Assembly (NCBI RefSeq): GCF_900007165.1
Contig: NZ_CYGY02000010.1
Location: forward strand, 99,920 to 163,919
Source of the DNA: Paraburkholderia piptadeniae
GTDB taxonomy: Bacteria; Pseudomonadota; Gammaproteobacteria; Burkholderiales; Burkholderiaceae
DNA: 64,000 nucleotides
Direction of reading: 5' to 3'
The position numbers were made by a program, and so were the translations under genes. Shown in pieces: positions 10,716 to 41,727 of the stretch. How positions within the stretch are numbered: position 1 is the first letter of the stretch; every line of letters starts with the position of its first letter. The notes under the pieces are model-generated. The model was not told where the DNA came from. It did not search any database and saw nothing but the letters and a program-made list of their open reading frames with translations.

Positions 10716-12275
10716 TCAATGCGCGCCCGCCGCTGCCGCGCCGCCACCGCCGCCCTTGGCGGGCCTCGTCAGCCAGATCAGCGGAATGATCACGATGAAG
10801 ATCATCGACGACAGCCAGAAGATGTCGTTCAGCCCGAGCATCGCGGCCTGTGCATTCAGCGACCGCTCAAAGAACGCGACGGCCTGATCCATGCTGCCGC
10901 CGAGCGTCGCGTGCACGTTCGCGATCGCGTTCGTGTACGCGGGGTTGTTCACGCTCGACTGCTCCGCGAGTTGCGCATGGTGCAGGATGGTCCGGTTGTT
11001 CCAGCCCGTCGTGACGAGCGACGTGCCCACGCCGCCCGCGAACACGCGCACAAAGTTCGACACACCCGCTGCTGCCGGAATCTTGTCGGCGGGCAGGCCC
11101 GACAGGATGATGGCCGTCAGCGGCACGAAGAACAGCGCAGTCGGAATGCCTTGCAGCAGAGTCGGCAGAATCAGCGTCCATGGGTCGACGCCCGTCGTGT
11201 AGTTCGAGCGCATGAAGAACACGCCTGCGAAGCCGATGAAAGCGAGCGTCGCGAGCACGCGCGCGTCGGACTTCGGCATGATCTTCGCCATCACGGGCGC
11301 GAGCAGCACGGCGAAGATCCCGAGGGGCGCCGTCACGAGGCCCGCATCTACCGAACGATAGCCGAGATAGCCCTGAATCCACTGCGGCAGGATCACGAGA
11401 TTTGAGAAGTACAGCGCATACGCGACCGAGATCGCAATCGTCCCGCCGCGGAAATTGCGCACCGCGAAGAGCCGGATATCGACGACCGGGTTCTTCTCCG
11501 TGAACTCCCAGATCAGGAAGAACAGAAAACTGATCGCCGCGATGGCCGCGAGCGTGCAGATCACGGGCGAGCTGAACCAGTCGAGATCCTTGCCCTTGTC
11601 GAGCATGATCTGCAGCGACGCGACCCATACGACGAGCGACATCAGGCCGACCTTGTCGATGGGCAGCTTGCGTGTCGGCGATTCGCGGTCGCGATAGATC
11701 ATCCACGTCACGGCGGCGGCGAACAGGCCGACGGGAACGTTGATATAGAAGATCCACGACCAGCTGTAGCTGTCGGTGATCCAGCCGCCGAGCGCCGGAC
11801 CCGCAATCGGGCCGACCGTCGCCGTCATCGCCCACAGCGCCAGCGCCGTCGAGCTTTTTTCCTTCGGATATGAGCCGATCAGAATGGACTGCGATAGCGG
11901 AATCAGCGGACCCGCGACGGCGCCTTGCAACACGCGCGCGGCGAGCAGCACGATCAGGTTCGGCGCGACGCCGCACAGCCACGACGAGAACACGAACAGC
12001 ACGATCGCGGCGACGAACAGCCTGATCTGCCCGACGCGCTGCGTAAGCCAGCCCGTCAGCGGAATCGCGACGGCATTGGCCGCCGAGAACAGCGTGATCA
12101 CCCACGTGCCTTCGTCGACGGACACGCCAAGATTGCCGGAGATGGTCGGAATCGCGACGTTCGCAATCGACGAATCGAGCACGTTCATGAACGTCGCCAG
12201 CGCGACGGCGATCGTCGCGAGGACCAGCTTGCCGCCTGTGAGCGGTGGCGGTGAAAGTTGCGTCGAGGGATTCAT
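10716..12275 (-). CDS. EmrB-type DHA2 drug:proton antiporter
   Basis: 519-residue inner-membrane transporter of the major facilitator superfamily, DHA2 branch, with about 14 membrane helices. Family features are LDSSIANVAIPTISGNLG in helix 1 (about residues 33-50), the GWLTQRVGQIRLF loop after helix 2 and GPLIPLSQSIL and GPALGGWITDSYSWSWIFYINVPVG in the middle. The C-terminus is an Ala/Gly-rich tail. It is the last gene of the operon marR-NodT-EmrA-EmrB; together these would span both membranes and expel hydrophobic compounds. Substrates are unknown. The ATG at 12275 starts directly at the expected N-terminus; the terminator at 10648-10678 ends the operon. Confidence 0.9.
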   Translation of the reverse strand: MNPSTQLSPPPLTGGKLVLATIAVALATFMNVLDSSIANVAIPTISGNLGVSVDEGTWVITLFSAANAVAIPLTGWLTQRVGQIRLFVAAIVLFVFSSWLCGVAPNLIVLLAARVLQGAVAGPLIPLSQSILIGSYPKEKSSTALALWAMTATVGPIAGPALGGWITDSYSWSWIFYINVPVGLFAAAVTWMIYRDRESPTRKLPIDKVGLMSLVVWVASLQIMLDKGKDLDWFSSPVICTLAAIAAISFLFFLIWEFTEKNPVVDIRLFAVRNFRGGTIAISVAYALYFSNLVILPQWIQGYLGYRSVDAGLVTAPLGIFAVLLAPVMAKIMPKSDARVLATLAFIGFAGVFFMRSNYTTGVDPWTLILPTLLQGIPTALFFVPLTAIILSGLPADKIPAAAGVSNFVRVFAGGVGTSLVTTGWNNRTILHHAQLAEQSSVNNPAYTNAIANVHATLGGSMDQAVAFFERSLNAQAAMLGLNDIFWLSSMIFIVIIPLIWLTRPAKGGGGGAAAAGAH

Positions 12276-12314
12276 GTCAGTTCAAATCCAAAGTTTTCTA
12301 TCGGTTGGCGGCTT

Positions 12315-12334
12315 TTATCTGACCAATCAGATAA
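12315..12334. promoter_or_regulatory. MarR-type operator candidate (copy 1), between the EmrA and EmrB genes
   Basis: Perfect inverted repeat TTATCTGA / TCAGATAA separated by CCAA. It contains TGACCAATCAGATA (12320-12333), one of four copies of TGACNNRTCAGATA in this efflux region. Its position suggests a second regulated promoter just before the EmrB gene. Confidence 0.7.
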
Positions 12335-12379
12335 TTGGGCGAACCGGGACATGATGTGCGCCACGTCCCGGCGTGCGAA

Positions 12380-13702
12380 TTAGCCGGCACGCTGTGAACC
12401 GCCGCGCCTGTCTCCCTTCTCGCCCGCGTCGGGCTTCGCAAGTGGCCGCGACGATGTGGCGCTGGCCATCGGGCTCGCATGCATCGGCACGCTGTTCTGC
12501 GCGATGATCTTCTCGATCTCGGCATCGGCCTGCGCGCCGTATCCATCGAACACATCCGTGTGATACGTCGTGTTCATGGCCGTGCCGAGTTGCGCGCCGG
12601 TTTCGTCGCGCGTGTCGACATTGACTTCCATCGAAAGACCGATACGCAGCGGATGCGCTTCGAGTTCCTTCTGGTCGAGCTGAATGCGCGCGGGCAAGCG
12701 TTGCACGACCTTGATCCAGTTGCCCGTCGCGTTCTGCGCGGGCAGCGTTGCGAACGCGCTGCCCGTGCCCGCCGAGAAGCCGGCCACGCGGCCGTGATAC
12801 TGGACCTTGCCGCCATACACGTCGGCCGTCAGCGTCACGGGCTGACCGATGCGCATGTTGCGCAACTGGCTTTCCTTGTAGTTCGCATCGACCCACACGC
12901 CGTCGAGCGGCACGACCGCCATCAGCGGCGTGCCCGGCGACACGCGCTGGCCGACCTGCACCGAGCGCTTCGCGACATAGCCGGTGACGGGCGCAGGCAG
13001 CGTGTTGCGCGCATACGCGAGGTACGCGTCGCGCACTTTCGATGCGGCAGCCTGCACGTTCGGGTGCTGTTCGATCGTCGTGCGATCGGTCAACGCGCGG
13101 TTTGCTTCCGCCTGTTGACGCGCGGCGTCGAGCGCGGCCTGCGCGGCCGTCACGGTGTCGCGTGCATGTGCGATGTCTTCCGCCGACACCGCGCCCGTAT
13201 CGGCGACGGCCTGGCGGCGGCGCAGATCGTCCTGTGCGCGCGCCAGTTCGGATTGCTTCTGCGCAACGTTGGCCGCATAGAAATCGTTGTTCACGTACAG
13301 GCTGCTCACTTGCCGCACGGTCTGTCCGAGCGTCGCTTCGGCGTTGCCGAGCGCAACCCTCGCATCGGCGTTGTCGAGCTTCACGACGGGGTCGCCCACT
13401 TTCACGACCTGCGTGTCGTCGGCATTCACGGCGACGACGGTGCCCGTCACCTGCGGCGTCAGCTGCACGAGGTTGCCGCTGACGTACGCGTCGTCAGTGG
13501 TCTCGTGATAGCGGGCATACGTCATGTAGTACGCGCCATACGCGGCCGCCGACACGACGACGGCCGCGCCGAGCAGCGCGAGCAGCAGCTTGCGCTTGCG
13601 CGTGCCGGGCTCGTTCGCGGCGGCATCGCGCTTCGCGGGCGCTGCTGCCGTGGCTTGCGAGTCTTGCGTCGCTTGACGCTCCGGGGTGTTGAGTTCGCTC
13701 AT
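12380..13702 (-). CDS. EmrA/HlyD-type periplasmic adaptor of a drug efflux pump
   Basis: 440-residue membrane-fusion protein. A short cytoplasmic tail rich in Ala/Gln leads into one membrane helix (about residues 36-57, KLLLALLGAAVVVSAAAYG), then the biotinyl-lipoyl-like segment with TDDAYVSGNLVQLTPQVTG, a long alpha-helical hairpin (about residues 125-220) and a beta-barrel domain (RVSPGTPLMAVVPLDGVWVDANYKE region). It joins the EmrB-type transporter to the NodT outer-membrane channel. The start MSELNT at 13702 is preferred; an in-frame upstream extension reads as non-coding. It sits 34 bases after the NodT gene. The Ser/Pro-rich C-terminal tail is typical. Confidence 0.9.
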   Translation of the reverse strand: MSELNTPERQATQDSQATAAAPAKRDAAANEPGTRKRKLLLALLGAAVVVSAAAYGAYYMTYARYHETTDDAYVSGNLVQLTPQVTGTVVAVNADDTQVVKVGDPVVKLDNADARVALGNAEATLGQTVRQVSSLYVNNDFYAANVAQKQSELARAQDDLRRRQAVADTGAVSAEDIAHARDTVTAAQAALDAARQQAEANRALTDRTTIEQHPNVQAAASKVRDAYLAYARNTLPAPVTGYVAKRSVQVGQRVSPGTPLMAVVPLDGVWVDANYKESQLRNMRIGQPVTLTADVYGGKVQYHGRVAGFSAGTGSAFATLPAQNATGNWIKVVQRLPARIQLDQKELEAHPLRIGLSMEVNVDTRDETGAQLGTAMNTTYHTDVFDGYGAQADAEIEKIIAQNSVPMHASPMASATSSRPLAKPDAGEKGDRRGGSQRAG

Positions 13703-13736
13703 TTCGATTCTCCAGGCGGATTCGATAAGTTGCCGC

Positions 13737-15236
13737 TCAGCGTGCGGCGACGGCAGACGTGTTGGGATCGGACGCATTCGACGCATCGACGAAGCCGCCG
13801 CCAAGCGCGGAAGCCAGCGCGATCTGCTGGTCGCGGCGATCCATGCGCAGGTTGGCGACGGCCTGATCGGCGGAAAGCGCGTTGACGTCGGCATTCAGGA
13901 CGGTCAGCTGATTCGTGAGTCCGGCCTTGTACTGCACCAGCGCGAGCTTGTCGGCCTGGCGCGCGGCATCCTGCGCGTTCTGCGCATCGACGAGCTGTCC
14001 GTCCGTCGAGCGCACGTCGGCGAGTTGCGTCGCGACTTCGCTCAATGCGGTGACGAGCGTCTGGTTGTAGGTCGCGACGGCGTAATCGAAATCGGCGTAG
14101 CGGCCCTTCAGTTGAGCGCGCAGTTCGCCTGCATCGAAGATGGGCAGATGGATCGCCGGGCCCACCGACGCGGTGCGGCTCGCCGCCGTCAGAAAGCGGC
14201 CGAAGCCGAACGCGTCGAGACCGATCGCGGCACTCAGGTTGATGTCGGGATAGAACTCGGCCTTCGCTTCCTTCACGTCGTGCGTCATCGCGTCGACGCG
14301 CCAGCGCGCGGCCACGATATCGGGGCGGCGGCTCACGAGATCCGCGGGCAGGTTATCAGGCAGACGCACTTCGTCGCCAATGCCGAGCGTCGGACGCGCG
14401 ATCTGCAAGCCACGGTCCGGCCCTGCGCCGAGCAGCGCGGCGATCTGATAGCGCGTCGTGAGAATCCGGCCGTCGAGCGCCTTCAGCGTGGCGCGGCTCG
14501 TCGCGAGATTGGCCTGCGCGGTCTTGCGCTCGACTTCTGTATCCAGCCCCGTCGCAATGCGGCCCGCCGTGATGCGGTCGATCTGCTCGCGCTGCGCGAT
14601 CTCCTGTTGCGCGATGTCGCGCAGCACATACAGGCGCGCGAGCTGGTTATACGTGCGGGCAATCGATGTCGTCAGCGTCAGCTTGACGAGTTCCGCGTCG
14701 GCCTGGCTGGCCTGAAGCTGCGAGACCGCCGACTTCAACGCTTCGCGGTTCTTGCCCCACAGATCGAGATCGTACGAAGCGCTCAGCAGGCCCTTGTTTT
14801 CCGTCTGCCACGAACCGCCGTATGGAGGCGGAACGAGCGCCGTGCTGGAGAACTGCTGGCGCGTGAGCGAGTAGCTTGCGTCGACGCGCGGCATCGTGCC
14901 CGCCTTCGCCGTTTCGCTAAAAGCCGAAGCAGACGCGACGCGGGCGCGCGCCTGGTCGAGCGTCGGGCTGCTCTTCAGCGCTTCATCGATCAGCGCCTTC
15001 AGTTGCGCATCGCCGAACTGATCGGCCCAATTCGCTGCGGGCCAGTGGCCCTGCTCGGCGGGAATGCTCTGCTGCGTTGCGTACTGCTGCGGCTCGGCCG
15101 TCTTCGCGTCGCTGTGGATGCCCGCGTAGTTCACGCACGCCGACAGCACCGCCGCGAACATCACCGAGACACCCACTTTCAGCGCGCGCGATGCGCGCTG
15201 CCCGGTGTTCGATTTGGTTTTTGACTGATTGCTCAT
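13737..15236 (-). CDS. NodT-family outer-membrane efflux lipoprotein
   Basis: 499-residue outer-membrane channel of the TolC/OprM class. The lipoprotein signal ends at LSAC with Cys34 as the acylated residue. Two OEP repeats follow, each with long helices, such as LIDEALKSSPTLDQARARVASA and the repeat-2 region with GRIATGLDTEVERKTAQANLA and RPDIVAARWRVDAMTHDVKEAKAEFYPDINLSA (in parts). It is the outer-membrane component for the EmrA/EmrB pair downstream. The ATG at 15236 immediately follows the operator candidate at 15236-15255, so repressor binding would block entry to the gene. An in-frame 5' extension exists but lacks a lipoprotein signal. Confidence 0.9.
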   Translation of the reverse strand: MSNQSKTKSNTGQRASRALKVGVSVMFAAVLSACVNYAGIHSDAKTAEPQQYATQQSIPAEQGHWPAANWADQFGDAQLKALIDEALKSSPTLDQARARVASASAFSETAKAGTMPRVDASYSLTRQQFSSTALVPPPYGGSWQTENKGLLSASYDLDLWGKNREALKSAVSQLQASQADAELVKLTLTTSIARTYNQLARLYVLRDIAQQEIAQREQIDRITAGRIATGLDTEVERKTAQANLATSRATLKALDGRILTTRYQIAALLGAGPDRGLQIARPTLGIGDEVRLPDNLPADLVSRRPDIVAARWRVDAMTHDVKEAKAEFYPDINLSAAIGLDAFGFGRFLTAASRTASVGPAIHLPIFDAGELRAQLKGRYADFDYAVATYNQTLVTALSEVATQLADVRSTDGQLVDAQNAQDAARQADKLALVQYKAGLTNQLTVLNADVNALSADQAVANLRMDRRDQQIALASALGGGFVDASNASDPNTSAVAAR

Positions 15237-15255
15237 TTTCTGACCTATCAGATAA
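15236..15255. promoter_or_regulatory. MarR-type operator candidate (copy 2), between marR and the NodT gene
   Basis: TTTTCTGA / TCAGATAA around CCTA, one mismatch from a perfect 20-base dyad. The core TGACCTATCAGATA (15241-15254) differs from copy 1 at one base, and the following ATTGG is shared with copy 1. Confidence 0.7.
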
Positions 15256-15271
15256 TTGGATAAAAAATCGC

Positions 15272-15709
15272 TCAATCGTCGAGGAATTTTCGAAGCAGAC
15301 GGCGCAGTTCGTCGAATTCCGCCGCGGTGAAGCGCCCGAGGCGCGCGTTCAGCACATCCGGCGCGATCTCGGCGATGCGCAGCGCGACCTCGCGGCCCGC
15401 GTCCGTCAGTTCGAGATTCACGACGCGTCGGTCGTCGCTGCTGCGCGAGCGCGTGAGCATCCGGAGCGCTTCGAGCTTGTCGAGCATGCGCGTCATCAGG
15501 CCCGTGTCGATGCCGAGGTGCCGCGACAGCATCGCCGGCGTCGTATCGACGCCCCGCATCAGCGACAACAAAATGCCGACATGGTGCGCCCTGATGTTCA
15601 GGTCCTTCACCGCTGCATCCATCTGCGTCATCACGACGTTGCGCGCCTTGCTGATCGCGCAAATGACATCTTGCGTCAAGTGGAAATCGTCTTCCGGATC
15701 GTGCAACAT
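15272..15709 (-). CDS. MarR-family repressor of the efflux operon (first copy)
   Basis: 145-residue winged-helix regulator. The recognition region LSRHLGIDTGLMTRMLDKLEA lies at about residues 61-81, followed by the wing RSSDDRRVVNLELTDAG. The ATG at 15709 is preferred over a longer in-frame start at 15769 because CGGAG lies five bases upstream and because the longer form would read through the operator at 15743-15756. It heads the operon NodT-EmrA-EmrB and is probably its ligand-responsive repressor and autoregulator. It is a close paralogue of the neighbouring MarR gene at 15861-16298, sharing GIDTGLMTRMLDKLEA and APDVLNARL. Confidence 0.9.
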   Translation of the reverse strand: MLHDPEDDFHLTQDVICAISKARNVVMTQMDAAVKDLNIRAHHVGILLSLMRGVDTTPAMLSRHLGIDTGLMTRMLDKLEALRMLTRSRSSDDRRVVNLELTDAGREVALRIAEIAPDVLNARLGRFTAAEFDELRRLLRKFLDD

Positions 15710-15742
15710 CTCTGACTCCGTGCTATTTGCAAGAACAATAAT

Positions 15743-15756
15743 TGACATGTCAGATA
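15743..15756. promoter_or_regulatory. MarR-type operator candidate (copy 3), upstream of first marR
   Basis: TGACATGTCAGATA, containing the 10-base perfect palindrome TGACATGTCA (15743-15752). It lies 34 bases before the chosen marR start, in the right place for autoregulation. Confidence 0.68.
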
Positions 15757-15860
15757 CAATCAACAGCACATGGTGAAACTCATTGTTCCACCGGATGCGA
15801 CAGTCCTTATCTTTCAGTTGGATAGTGCGGATGCGGGCCGAACGGCCGCACGGGGCGTGT

Positions 15861-16298
15861 TCAGTCGCCCAGGAATTTGCGCAGCAAGCGGCGCAGTTCC
15901 GTGAGTTCGGCCTTTGTGAAGTCCTTGAGGCGTGCGTTGAGCACGTCAGGCGCGATTTCGGGAATCTGATCGGCGACGGCGATGCCGTCTTTCGTCAGCG
16001 AAAGATTGACGACGCGACGGTCCTGCTGGTCGCGAGAGCGCACCAGTAGCCCTCTCGCTTCGAGCTTGTCGAGCATGCGGGTCATCAGCCCCGTGTCGAT
16101 GCCGAGCATTTTCGACAGCTCGAATGGCGTCGACGCGAGGTTCTGTCTGAGCATCAGCACGATGCCCATTTGCTGGCCGGAGATGTCGAGTTCCTTGAGC
16201 GCCGCGTCCATCTCGGTGACGATCAGATTGCGCGCCTTCACGAGCTGGAAACCGACGCTCTCCCTCACCCTGAAATTGTCTTTGGTGTAGTGACGCAC
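15861..16298 (-). CDS. MarR-family regulator (second copy)
   Basis: 145-residue paralogue of the adjacent MarR protein. The helix-turn-helix and wing (LSKMLGIDTGLMTRMLDKLEA, then RDQQDRRVVNLSLT) are almost the same, so the two proteins probably recognise the same DNA. The start is GTG at 16298: AGGAGG lies six bases upstream (at about 16305-16310 on the opposite strand), whereas an earlier TTG at 16316 has no ribosome binding site. It is separated from the first marR by about 150 bases and transcribed in the same direction, toward it. It could feed into the efflux operon by cross-regulation or heterodimer formation, which is inference. Confidence 0.88.
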   Translation of the reverse strand: MRHYTKDNFRVRESVGFQLVKARNLIVTEMDAALKELDISGQQMGIVLMLRQNLASTPFELSKMLGIDTGLMTRMLDKLEARGLLVRSRDQQDRRVVNLSLTKDGIAVADQIPEIAPDVLNARLKDFTKAELTELRRLLRKFLGD

Positions 16299-16330
16299 GC
16301 GAGGCCTCCTGAGCAAAACGGCGATCTGAC

Positions 16331-16344
16331 TGACAGATCAGATA
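16331..16344. promoter_or_regulatory. MarR-type operator candidate (copy 4), upstream of second marR
   Basis: TGACAGATCAGATA, the fourth match to TGACNNRTCAGATA. It is overlapped by an ATCTG / CAGAT dyad at 16324-16338. It lies about 33 bases before the GTG start of the second marR gene, the same offset as copy 3 from the first marR. Confidence 0.66.
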
Positions 16345-16381
16345 CTACCAAATCAGGTCTCGCGCGCCGCTCGAAGCATGC

Positions 16382-17960
<1,579 letters not shown>

Positions 17961-41559: not shown

Positions 41560-41712
41560 TAGTGCGCATTTTCAGGGTTCGCGAATGATGCGTCCGCTAC
41601 ATACATCGCCACACCCGCACCGCACAAAAAGCCCATCTTTTACGGCATCTTATGCAAAAAAACGGGCGACAAAAAATATCGTCAGCCCTACGTGACAACA
41701 TTTTTTTTCGTG

Positions 41713-41727
41713 TGTAGGATTTTTTCA
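41713..41727. promoter_or_regulatory. RpiR/HexR-type operator 2 (degenerate)
   Basis: TGTAGGATTTTTTCA matches the reverse complement of operator 1 at 12 of 15 positions. It lies 55 bases before the binding-protein gene, in the position for controlling that promoter. Confidence 0.45.

Follow-up and report, generated by a model that had tools for sequence, protein, structure and literature searches.

A T-run at fixed spacing before a conserved putative MarR operator in an efflux cluster of Paraburkholderia piptadeniae and its relatives: a possible repressor-gated barrier to elongation

Introduction

How can the gene of an autorepressor share an operon with the pump that it silences, and what would further copies of its operator do inside that operon? 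This question is raised by a 64-kb stretch of DNA (64,000 nucleotides, the whole of which is referred to as the window) from the 9.71 Mb genome of Paraburkholderia piptadeniae, in which norR, marR2, marR1, nodT, emrA and emrB follow each other in this order on the minus strand and in which a 14-base motif occurs four times within 4 kb. The original prediction, made from the letters alone, took these sites for operators of the two encoded MarR proteins and proposed that the internal ones allow graded expression of the outer-membrane and pump genes. As outlined below, comparison with related loci supports a shared operator, and at nodT and emrB it reveals a second, strand-specific component at a nearly constant distance from it.

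Results

All four 14-mers (window positions 12320, 15241, 15743 and 16331, in one orientation) are present as described and are parts of a single 20-bp dyad, TTATCTGA-N4-TCAGATAA, which expresses these sites better than the earlier degenerate IUPAC motif did, although the sites which that motif marked are real. The dyad scores 16/16 at emrB and 15/16 at nodT, i.e., the two copies that had been called near-perfect, and 12/16 at both marR1 and marR2. Each copy lies just upstream of a start codon, the distance being 39 bp at emrB, 0 bp at nodT and, with start codons that were chosen by reading, 28 bp at marR1 and 27 bp at marR2. The claim that such an arrangement is unlikely to arise by chance is borne out: with at most one mismatch the window contains five matches, compared to a mean of 0.21 over 100 shuffles, none of which reached five, and four of the five exact matches in the entire 9.71 Mb genome fall within this 4 kb.

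Specificity drops sharply once the 14-mer is relaxed, as 52 places in the genome with at most one mismatch compare with 12 in the reversed control. An attempt to find a wider regulon with the full-length dyad at up to three mismatches failed (845 places in the genome versus 684 in the reversed control), and because such scans are swamped by background no claim on a wider regulon is made. The fifth exact 14-mer (C142:136592), whose left arm is poor (12/16), is located about 100 bp upstream of an open reading frame resembling a response regulator by eye. Apart from the emrB site, the perfect form TATCTGA-N4-TCAGATA occurs only at C194:10385, which resides inside an open reading frame of 520 aa and was therefore taken as chance. 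No dyad of 12/16 was found in the 3.4 kb seen around two further MarR genes of this genome (C106:83594-84004 and C217:12112-12525, 33% and 41% identical to MarR1 and located, by eye, beside nodT-like or emrB-like genes), nor across the 3.4 kb of its other MarR-NodT pair (L034, MarR at 33%).

With respect to conservation, the best 80 of 155 loci from a MarR1-based scan were compared together with 10 kb of the window, amounting to 889 kb from Paraburkholderia, Caballeronia, Trinickia, Burkholderia, Cupriavidus and Pandoraea. These 889 kb contain 260 dyads of at least 12/16, in contrast to one in the reversed control. A dyad of 13-15/16 precedes nodT in 69 of 70 rows; the remaining one, L116, was mis-scanned, its nodT match starting only at residue 136 and the marR operator being taken in place of its own element, yet a run of six Ts and an operator persist there (13/16, gap 6, no ATG). 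Upstream of emrB, dyads of 12-16/16 are present in 73 of 73 rows (72 sequences, as L047 was counted twice), and the marR gene preceding nodT carries one of at least 12/16 in 64 of 70 rows, the remaining six being left out of all T-run and promoter counts given below. In the 12 loci with two regulators, marR2 is always preceded by a dyad of 11-13/16. Two genes served as negative controls: the best upstream dyad reaches 7-10/16 at emrA (69 rows), which has no operator, and 8-10/16 at norR (10 rows). The genes are arranged in three ways, marR2-marR1-nodT-emrA-emrB, marR-nodT-emrA-emrB and emrB-marR-nodT-emrA, and emrB retains its operator in each of them. The orthologous loci thus lend support to the proposed shared operator, and the conservation of the dyad fits a predicted binding site of the cluster's own MarR repressors. 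Many emrB-first loci (L078:3256-3766, L113:3251-3756) have, in addition, a more divergent MarR gene before emrB with a variant site of its own, e.g., ATATCTGCAATGTCAGATAT.

What distinguishes the sites at nodT and emrB from those at marR is a run of at least six Ts on the coding strand ahead of the operator, which was found in 67 of 70 rows at nodT (68 of 70 when L116 is counted), in 53 of 73 at emrB and in none of 64 at marR, compared to 4 of 600 random places; among non-redundant sequences the respective numbers are 41/44, 36/52 and 0/46. The gap between T-run and operator is 6 nt (45 rows) or 7 nt (22) at nodT and 6 nt (44), 7 nt (8) or 8 nt (1) at emrB, with one further row in which the nearest T-run within the 150 nt searched lies 138 nt away. 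On the downstream side of the operator, runs of six or more Ts or As were seen neither at nodT (0/70) nor at emrB (0/73). In total, the nodT and emrB elements make up 120 of all 202 T-runs of this length that the loci have on the marR strand. The conserved string at both genes reads TTTTTTTANCCAA-operator, in which T7 and the CCA that follows it are conserved almost like the operator itself, and the stretch upstream of the T-run is unconserved. A symmetric operator combined with a one-sided, strand-specific T-run implies a direction, most obviously that of transcription, and a T-run 6-8 nt upstream of a putative repressor site suggests that it is elongation or termination that is controlled.

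The operator at nodT also keeps its register: in each of the 69 rows that were scanned correctly it extends up to and includes the A of the ATG, and in 45 of 70 rows its centre contains an AGG seven bases ahead of that ATG. That this start codon is the right one is indicated by the recurrent M-K-x-Q beginning of NodT which follows it. Because the operator includes the first base of the start codon, a translatable nodT mRNA would have to begin upstream, and the polymerase would have to cross both T-run and operator. For nodT, geometry leaves little choice in this respect; that the emrB operator also lies in a transcribed region would depend on co-transcription with emrA. Neither at nodT nor at emrB could a conserved -35 or -10 element be found flanking the site in non-redundant relatives, and no sigma-70-like site was detected in 12280-16480, with a cut-off that also misses the marR1 promoter. 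The idea that the internal sites grade expression by promoter-like control is therefore not upheld: the nodT operator enters the start codon, conserved promoter hexamers are missing and a T-run is conserved instead. A promoter in or beside the nodT operator was rejected on the first two of these grounds. A role of the T-run that involves ribosomal protein S1 or translation enhancement was also rejected, because at emrB it is often far from the ATG, its distance to the operator being unchanged.

At marR, the operator fills the spacer of a predicted -35/-10 promoter. Of 46 non-redundant loci, 32 have TTGACA directly abutting the operator and 37 have at least five of its six bases there, and TANNNT is found at +17 to +22 in all 46, to which the operator's own terminal TAT contributes; the equivalent at marR1 of the window is TTGATT-17-TATTGT. 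The marR2 site (window 16320-16350) can also be read as ATCTGA-N8-TCAGAT in an overlapping second register; the string TCAGTCAGAT at this site recurs in 7 of the 12 loci with two regulators, and a terminator scan lists a stem there too.

The nodT and emrB elements range from some that resemble a complete terminator to many that consist of a T-run alone. By a compact-stem test, 20 of 44 non-redundant nodT loci have a stem of at least 6 bp adjoining the T-run, compared to 5.3 expected and a maximum of 12 in 500 shuffles, a result which hinges on this second, stricter definition, adopted after a comparison of hairpin energies. The hairpin sequences themselves vary widely among species. In the window, nodT has a run of six Ts without compact stem, and emrB has a long, strong hairpin in place of the T-run; stems of at least 6 bp on the emrB side also occur in L042-L045, L047 and L048, all without T-run, and not in L046 or L049. 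The notion that hairpin and T-run are alternatives at emrB was dropped, the stem being present in 7 of 16 non-redundant rows without and in 6 of 36 with a T-run (p = 0.08, Fisher's exact test, not significant). In Paraburkholderia panacisoli (L065:5990-6060), marR is followed by a hairpin, T7, the operator and the start of nodT, whose frame ends after about 15 codons, and no match to nodT, emrA or emrB is found further along this 11.4-kb locus, so that the leader element has outlived the pump.

An exact composite pattern (T5, 6-7 nt, WATCTGANNNNTCAGA) matches at 40 places, spread over 31 of the 249 genomes from this family and over 10 of its 25 genera, with none in the reversed control, the matches being counted irrespective of gene neighbourhood and absences being soft, as the pattern demands exact matches. 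In an order-wide sample, of which 146 of 150 genomes belong to other families, it was present in one genome, that of P. piptadeniae itself. The composite in a relaxed form (at least six Ts, 6-8 nt before a dyad of 12/16) occurs in none of 28 more distant marR loci, some of them from the same family and the own locus and L132 being left out; nodT lies beside marR in 25 of these, and they were viewed with 1.5 kb flanks, which seldom reach emrB.

MarR1 and MarR2 are 58-59% identical. Their recognition helices, described before as almost the same, are in fact identical in the window (IDTGLMTRMLDKLE), as are the wing residues R89, S90, R91 and D95-N100, and helix and wing residues are invariant across 13 chosen aligned proteins. 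Because the two helices are identical in this genome, it is predicted that MarR1 and MarR2 share all four sites. The exact helix is present in 11 of 12 MarR2-type proteins and 56 of 58 single regulators, in 3 of 12 MarR1-type proteins, that of the window among them, and in none of 17 divergent paralogues encoded before emrB; as it is kept in so few MarR1-type proteins, MarR1 is freer to vary than MarR2. A tree of 110 MarR rows, based on few columns, places MarR2 among the single regulators of other species, and the MarR1 type forms a branch of its own (support 99/95) that includes one single regulator (L050). The single-regulator loci keep the same operators, and the dyad is therefore independent of the presence of two regulators. 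Cysteine is absent from MarR2, as from 12 of 12 MarR2-type proteins and 56 of 58 single regulators, and MarR1 has one, like 8 of 12 MarR1-type proteins.

The gene cluster

The features of the cluster are listed in Table 1. Both MarR proteins exceed the cut-offs of PF12802 and PF01047 and hence belong to the MarR winged helix-turn-helix family, but with 32.6 and 40.2 bits they fall below the cut-off of 157 of NF008122, the equivalog model for Escherichia coli EmrR/MprA. With a NodT-type factor, an EmrA-type adaptor and an EmrB-type permease beside marR, the gene content is that of an EmrCAB-type tripartite pump of the major facilitator superfamily (MFS), although the EmrA models NF011715 and TIGR00998 and the EmrB exception model NF000391 score below their cut-offs. 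Elsewhere in the window, at 41656-41725, runs of A7, A6, T8 and T6 are dense within 70 bp and perhaps form a bidirectional terminator.

Table 1. Features of the efflux cluster, in window coordinates
Feature	Position	Strand	Basis or remark
emrB, DHA2-type MFS permease (EmrB-like)	10716..12275	-	TIGR00711, 474 bits (cut-off 230)
Putative emrB operator, arms perfect (16/16), 39 bp ahead of ATG	12315..12334	-	Dyad scoring
G+C hairpin, 11 pairs counted, CCGGGACGTG...CATGTCCCGG, immediately upstream of emrB operator	12344..12371	-	Compact-stem test
emrA, periplasmic adaptor (EmrA-like)	12380..13702	-	NF011715, 450.7 bits (below cut-off 563)
nodT, outer-membrane efflux factor	13737..15236	-	TIGR01845, 411 bits (cut-off 210)
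Putative nodT operator (15/16); centre holds AGG of likely Shine-Dalgarno sequence, last base is A of ATG	15236..15255	-	
T-run, TTTTTT on coding strand, ending 6 nt ahead of nodT operator	15262..15267	-	
marR1, MarR-family repressor	15272..15709	-	PF12802, PF01047; start picked by reading (GGAG ... ATG)
Predicted marR1 promoter-operator: -35 TTGATT 15758-15763, operator 15738-15757, -10 TATTGT 15735-15740, spacer 17	15735..15763	-	
marR2, MarR-family repressor	15861..16298	-	PF12802, PF01047; GTG start picked by reading
Putative marR2 operator 16326-16345, overlapping extended -10-like TGGTAGTAT 16342-16350	16326..16350	-	

Discussion

Taken together, we lean towards the reading that the dyad copies are the operator of the cluster's MarR repressors, which would block a promoter at marR and the elongating polymerase at nodT and emrB. 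At marR, repression would be brought about by covering the promoter. At an internal operator, a bound MarR dimer would stall the polymerase such that its active site lies within the T-run or immediately upstream of it, the stall position of a roadblocked polymerase following from the size of the enzyme; the weak rU:dA hybrid formed there would favour backtracking and release, aided by the hairpin where one is present. The leaky transcript that supplies MarR would end before the pump genes, and binding of an inducer would open the promoter and the internal blocks together. A more specific version, which is put forward tentatively, is that T7-N6-operator might be a composite, repressor-gated elongation barrier conserved in at least six genera, with a promoter block at marR and a tunable terminator before each pump module. 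If this were true, the repressor gene could be transcribed without the pump, and modules could be moved within the operon and still be controlled, which would explain why an autorepressor shares an operon with the pump that it silences and why an operator stays with each rearranged module.

MarR repressors usually act at promoters, as the dyad at marR does by its geometry, and each operator might accordingly serve a promoter of its own, with nodT-emrA and emrB as separate units whose internal promoters are occluded by MarR. This would agree with the operator moving with emrB when the gene order changes and with emrB sites that end in a -10-like GATAA or GATAT, but a promoter in or after the nodT operator would start the mRNA inside the gene, and the missing hexamers and sigma-70-like matches reported above also speak against it. 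We regard it as unlikely overall, though by no means negligible, since at emrB a transcription start would fit downstream of the operator, a point that counts against an elongation block there. If the T-runs were instead ordinary intrinsic terminators of the upstream gene, next to which the operator came to lie by history and on which MarR has no effect, the rarity of T-runs in these loci and the excess of compact hairpins at nodT would be accounted for. However, plain neighbours would be expected to drift, in contrast to a gap of 6-8 nt in all but one row with a T-run within the distance searched; a compact hairpin is missing from roughly half of the nodT loci and from the majority of the emrB loci with a T-run; and nodT would then be made by read-through only, all of which renders this explanation improbable. 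Hardly more convincing is a role of the T-run at the DNA level, where it would aid binding of MarR or of another protein, for instance by being stiff or bent or by recruiting a nucleoid protein. A constant distance of some two helical turns to the dyad centre and the conserved CCA adjoining the T-run would fit such a role, but the operator is symmetric and the T-run is restricted to its upstream side and to the coding strand (120 versus 0), and the marR copy of the same operator does without it.

A number of observations weigh against an elongation block at nodT and emrB. The rows come from related species, and the counts are thus not independent events. A T-run is absent from 20 of 73 emrB rows, including that of the window; at nodT it is broken in L102 and reduced to T5 in L068 and in L132 from the same genus, in which both dyads are present. 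Compact stems are in excess at nodT only, those at emrB (13 of 52 non-redundant rows versus 7.6 expected) staying within the range of the shuffles (maximum 14). The median hairpin energies of -9.4 and -10.3 differ little from the -8.4 at random places, as the genomes are G+C-rich, and a terminator scan of 12280-16480 returned three candidates versus 3.9 in shuffles, none of them at the nodT or emrB element. Finally, the CCA between T-run and operator (window 15256-15261), though conserved at nodT and emrB in relatives, has no role in a roadblock.

Comparison with known systems

Among MarR-family repressors of Burkholderia, BifR of Burkholderia thailandensis is reportedly linked with emrB, and its oxidation is said to act via its cysteine. 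Whereas BifR, as cited in PMC10458429, is oxidised to a tetramer, the numbers of cysteines given above for MarR2 and MarR1 do not fit a BifR-type repressor oxidised via cysteine. A counterpart in gene content is EmrR-emrCAB of Chromobacterium violaceum. There, EmrR, a member of the MarR family, is the repressor both of its own gene and of an operon that encodes an outer-membrane factor, EmrA and EmrB; it binds directly as judged by electrophoretic mobility shift assay, and salicylate relieves the repression (PMC6249546). In the portions of that paper drawn on here, repression is at promoter level and internal operators or a T-run element are not described; its main text contains neither the word motif nor palindrom-.

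A combination of a fixed-spacing T-run with a repressor roadblock was not found described in open-access papers, but roadblocks as such are known for many repressors (PMC10310618). Similar with respect to the operator is GbsR of Bacillus subtilis, a MarR-type repressor whose site, an A/T-rich inverted repeat with its halves 4 bp apart, is situated downstream of the transcription start; from this position, the authors of that study inferred a roadblock (PMC7396694). GbsR differs in having one operator near the start site at each of two targets, and no fixed preceding T-run is mentioned in the sections of that paper on which this comparison is based. C.Kpn2I (PMC6237814) is likewise an autoregulator whose operator lies in a transcribed region and which stalls polymerase in vitro, but it is the controller protein of a restriction-modification system with a site within its own gene.

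In the LacI studies (PMC4132739, PMC10310618), a DNA-bound repressor halts the polymerase and Mfd ends the stalled complex, removing the roadblocked enzyme (PMC4132739); unlike the loci considered here, these were engineered constructs. In that work, Hao et al. named the sequence upstream of a roadblock as a factor beyond those tested that could affect termination (PMC4132739), and U-tracts near pause sites have been reported, under H-NS, to make paused complexes prone to backtracking (PMC4337669). Roadblocking by repressors is known, and in much of this family the very sequence that precedes the block, together with its spacing, seems to have become fixed in evolution twice in each operon, so that its effect on the outcome can be tested directly on natural templates.

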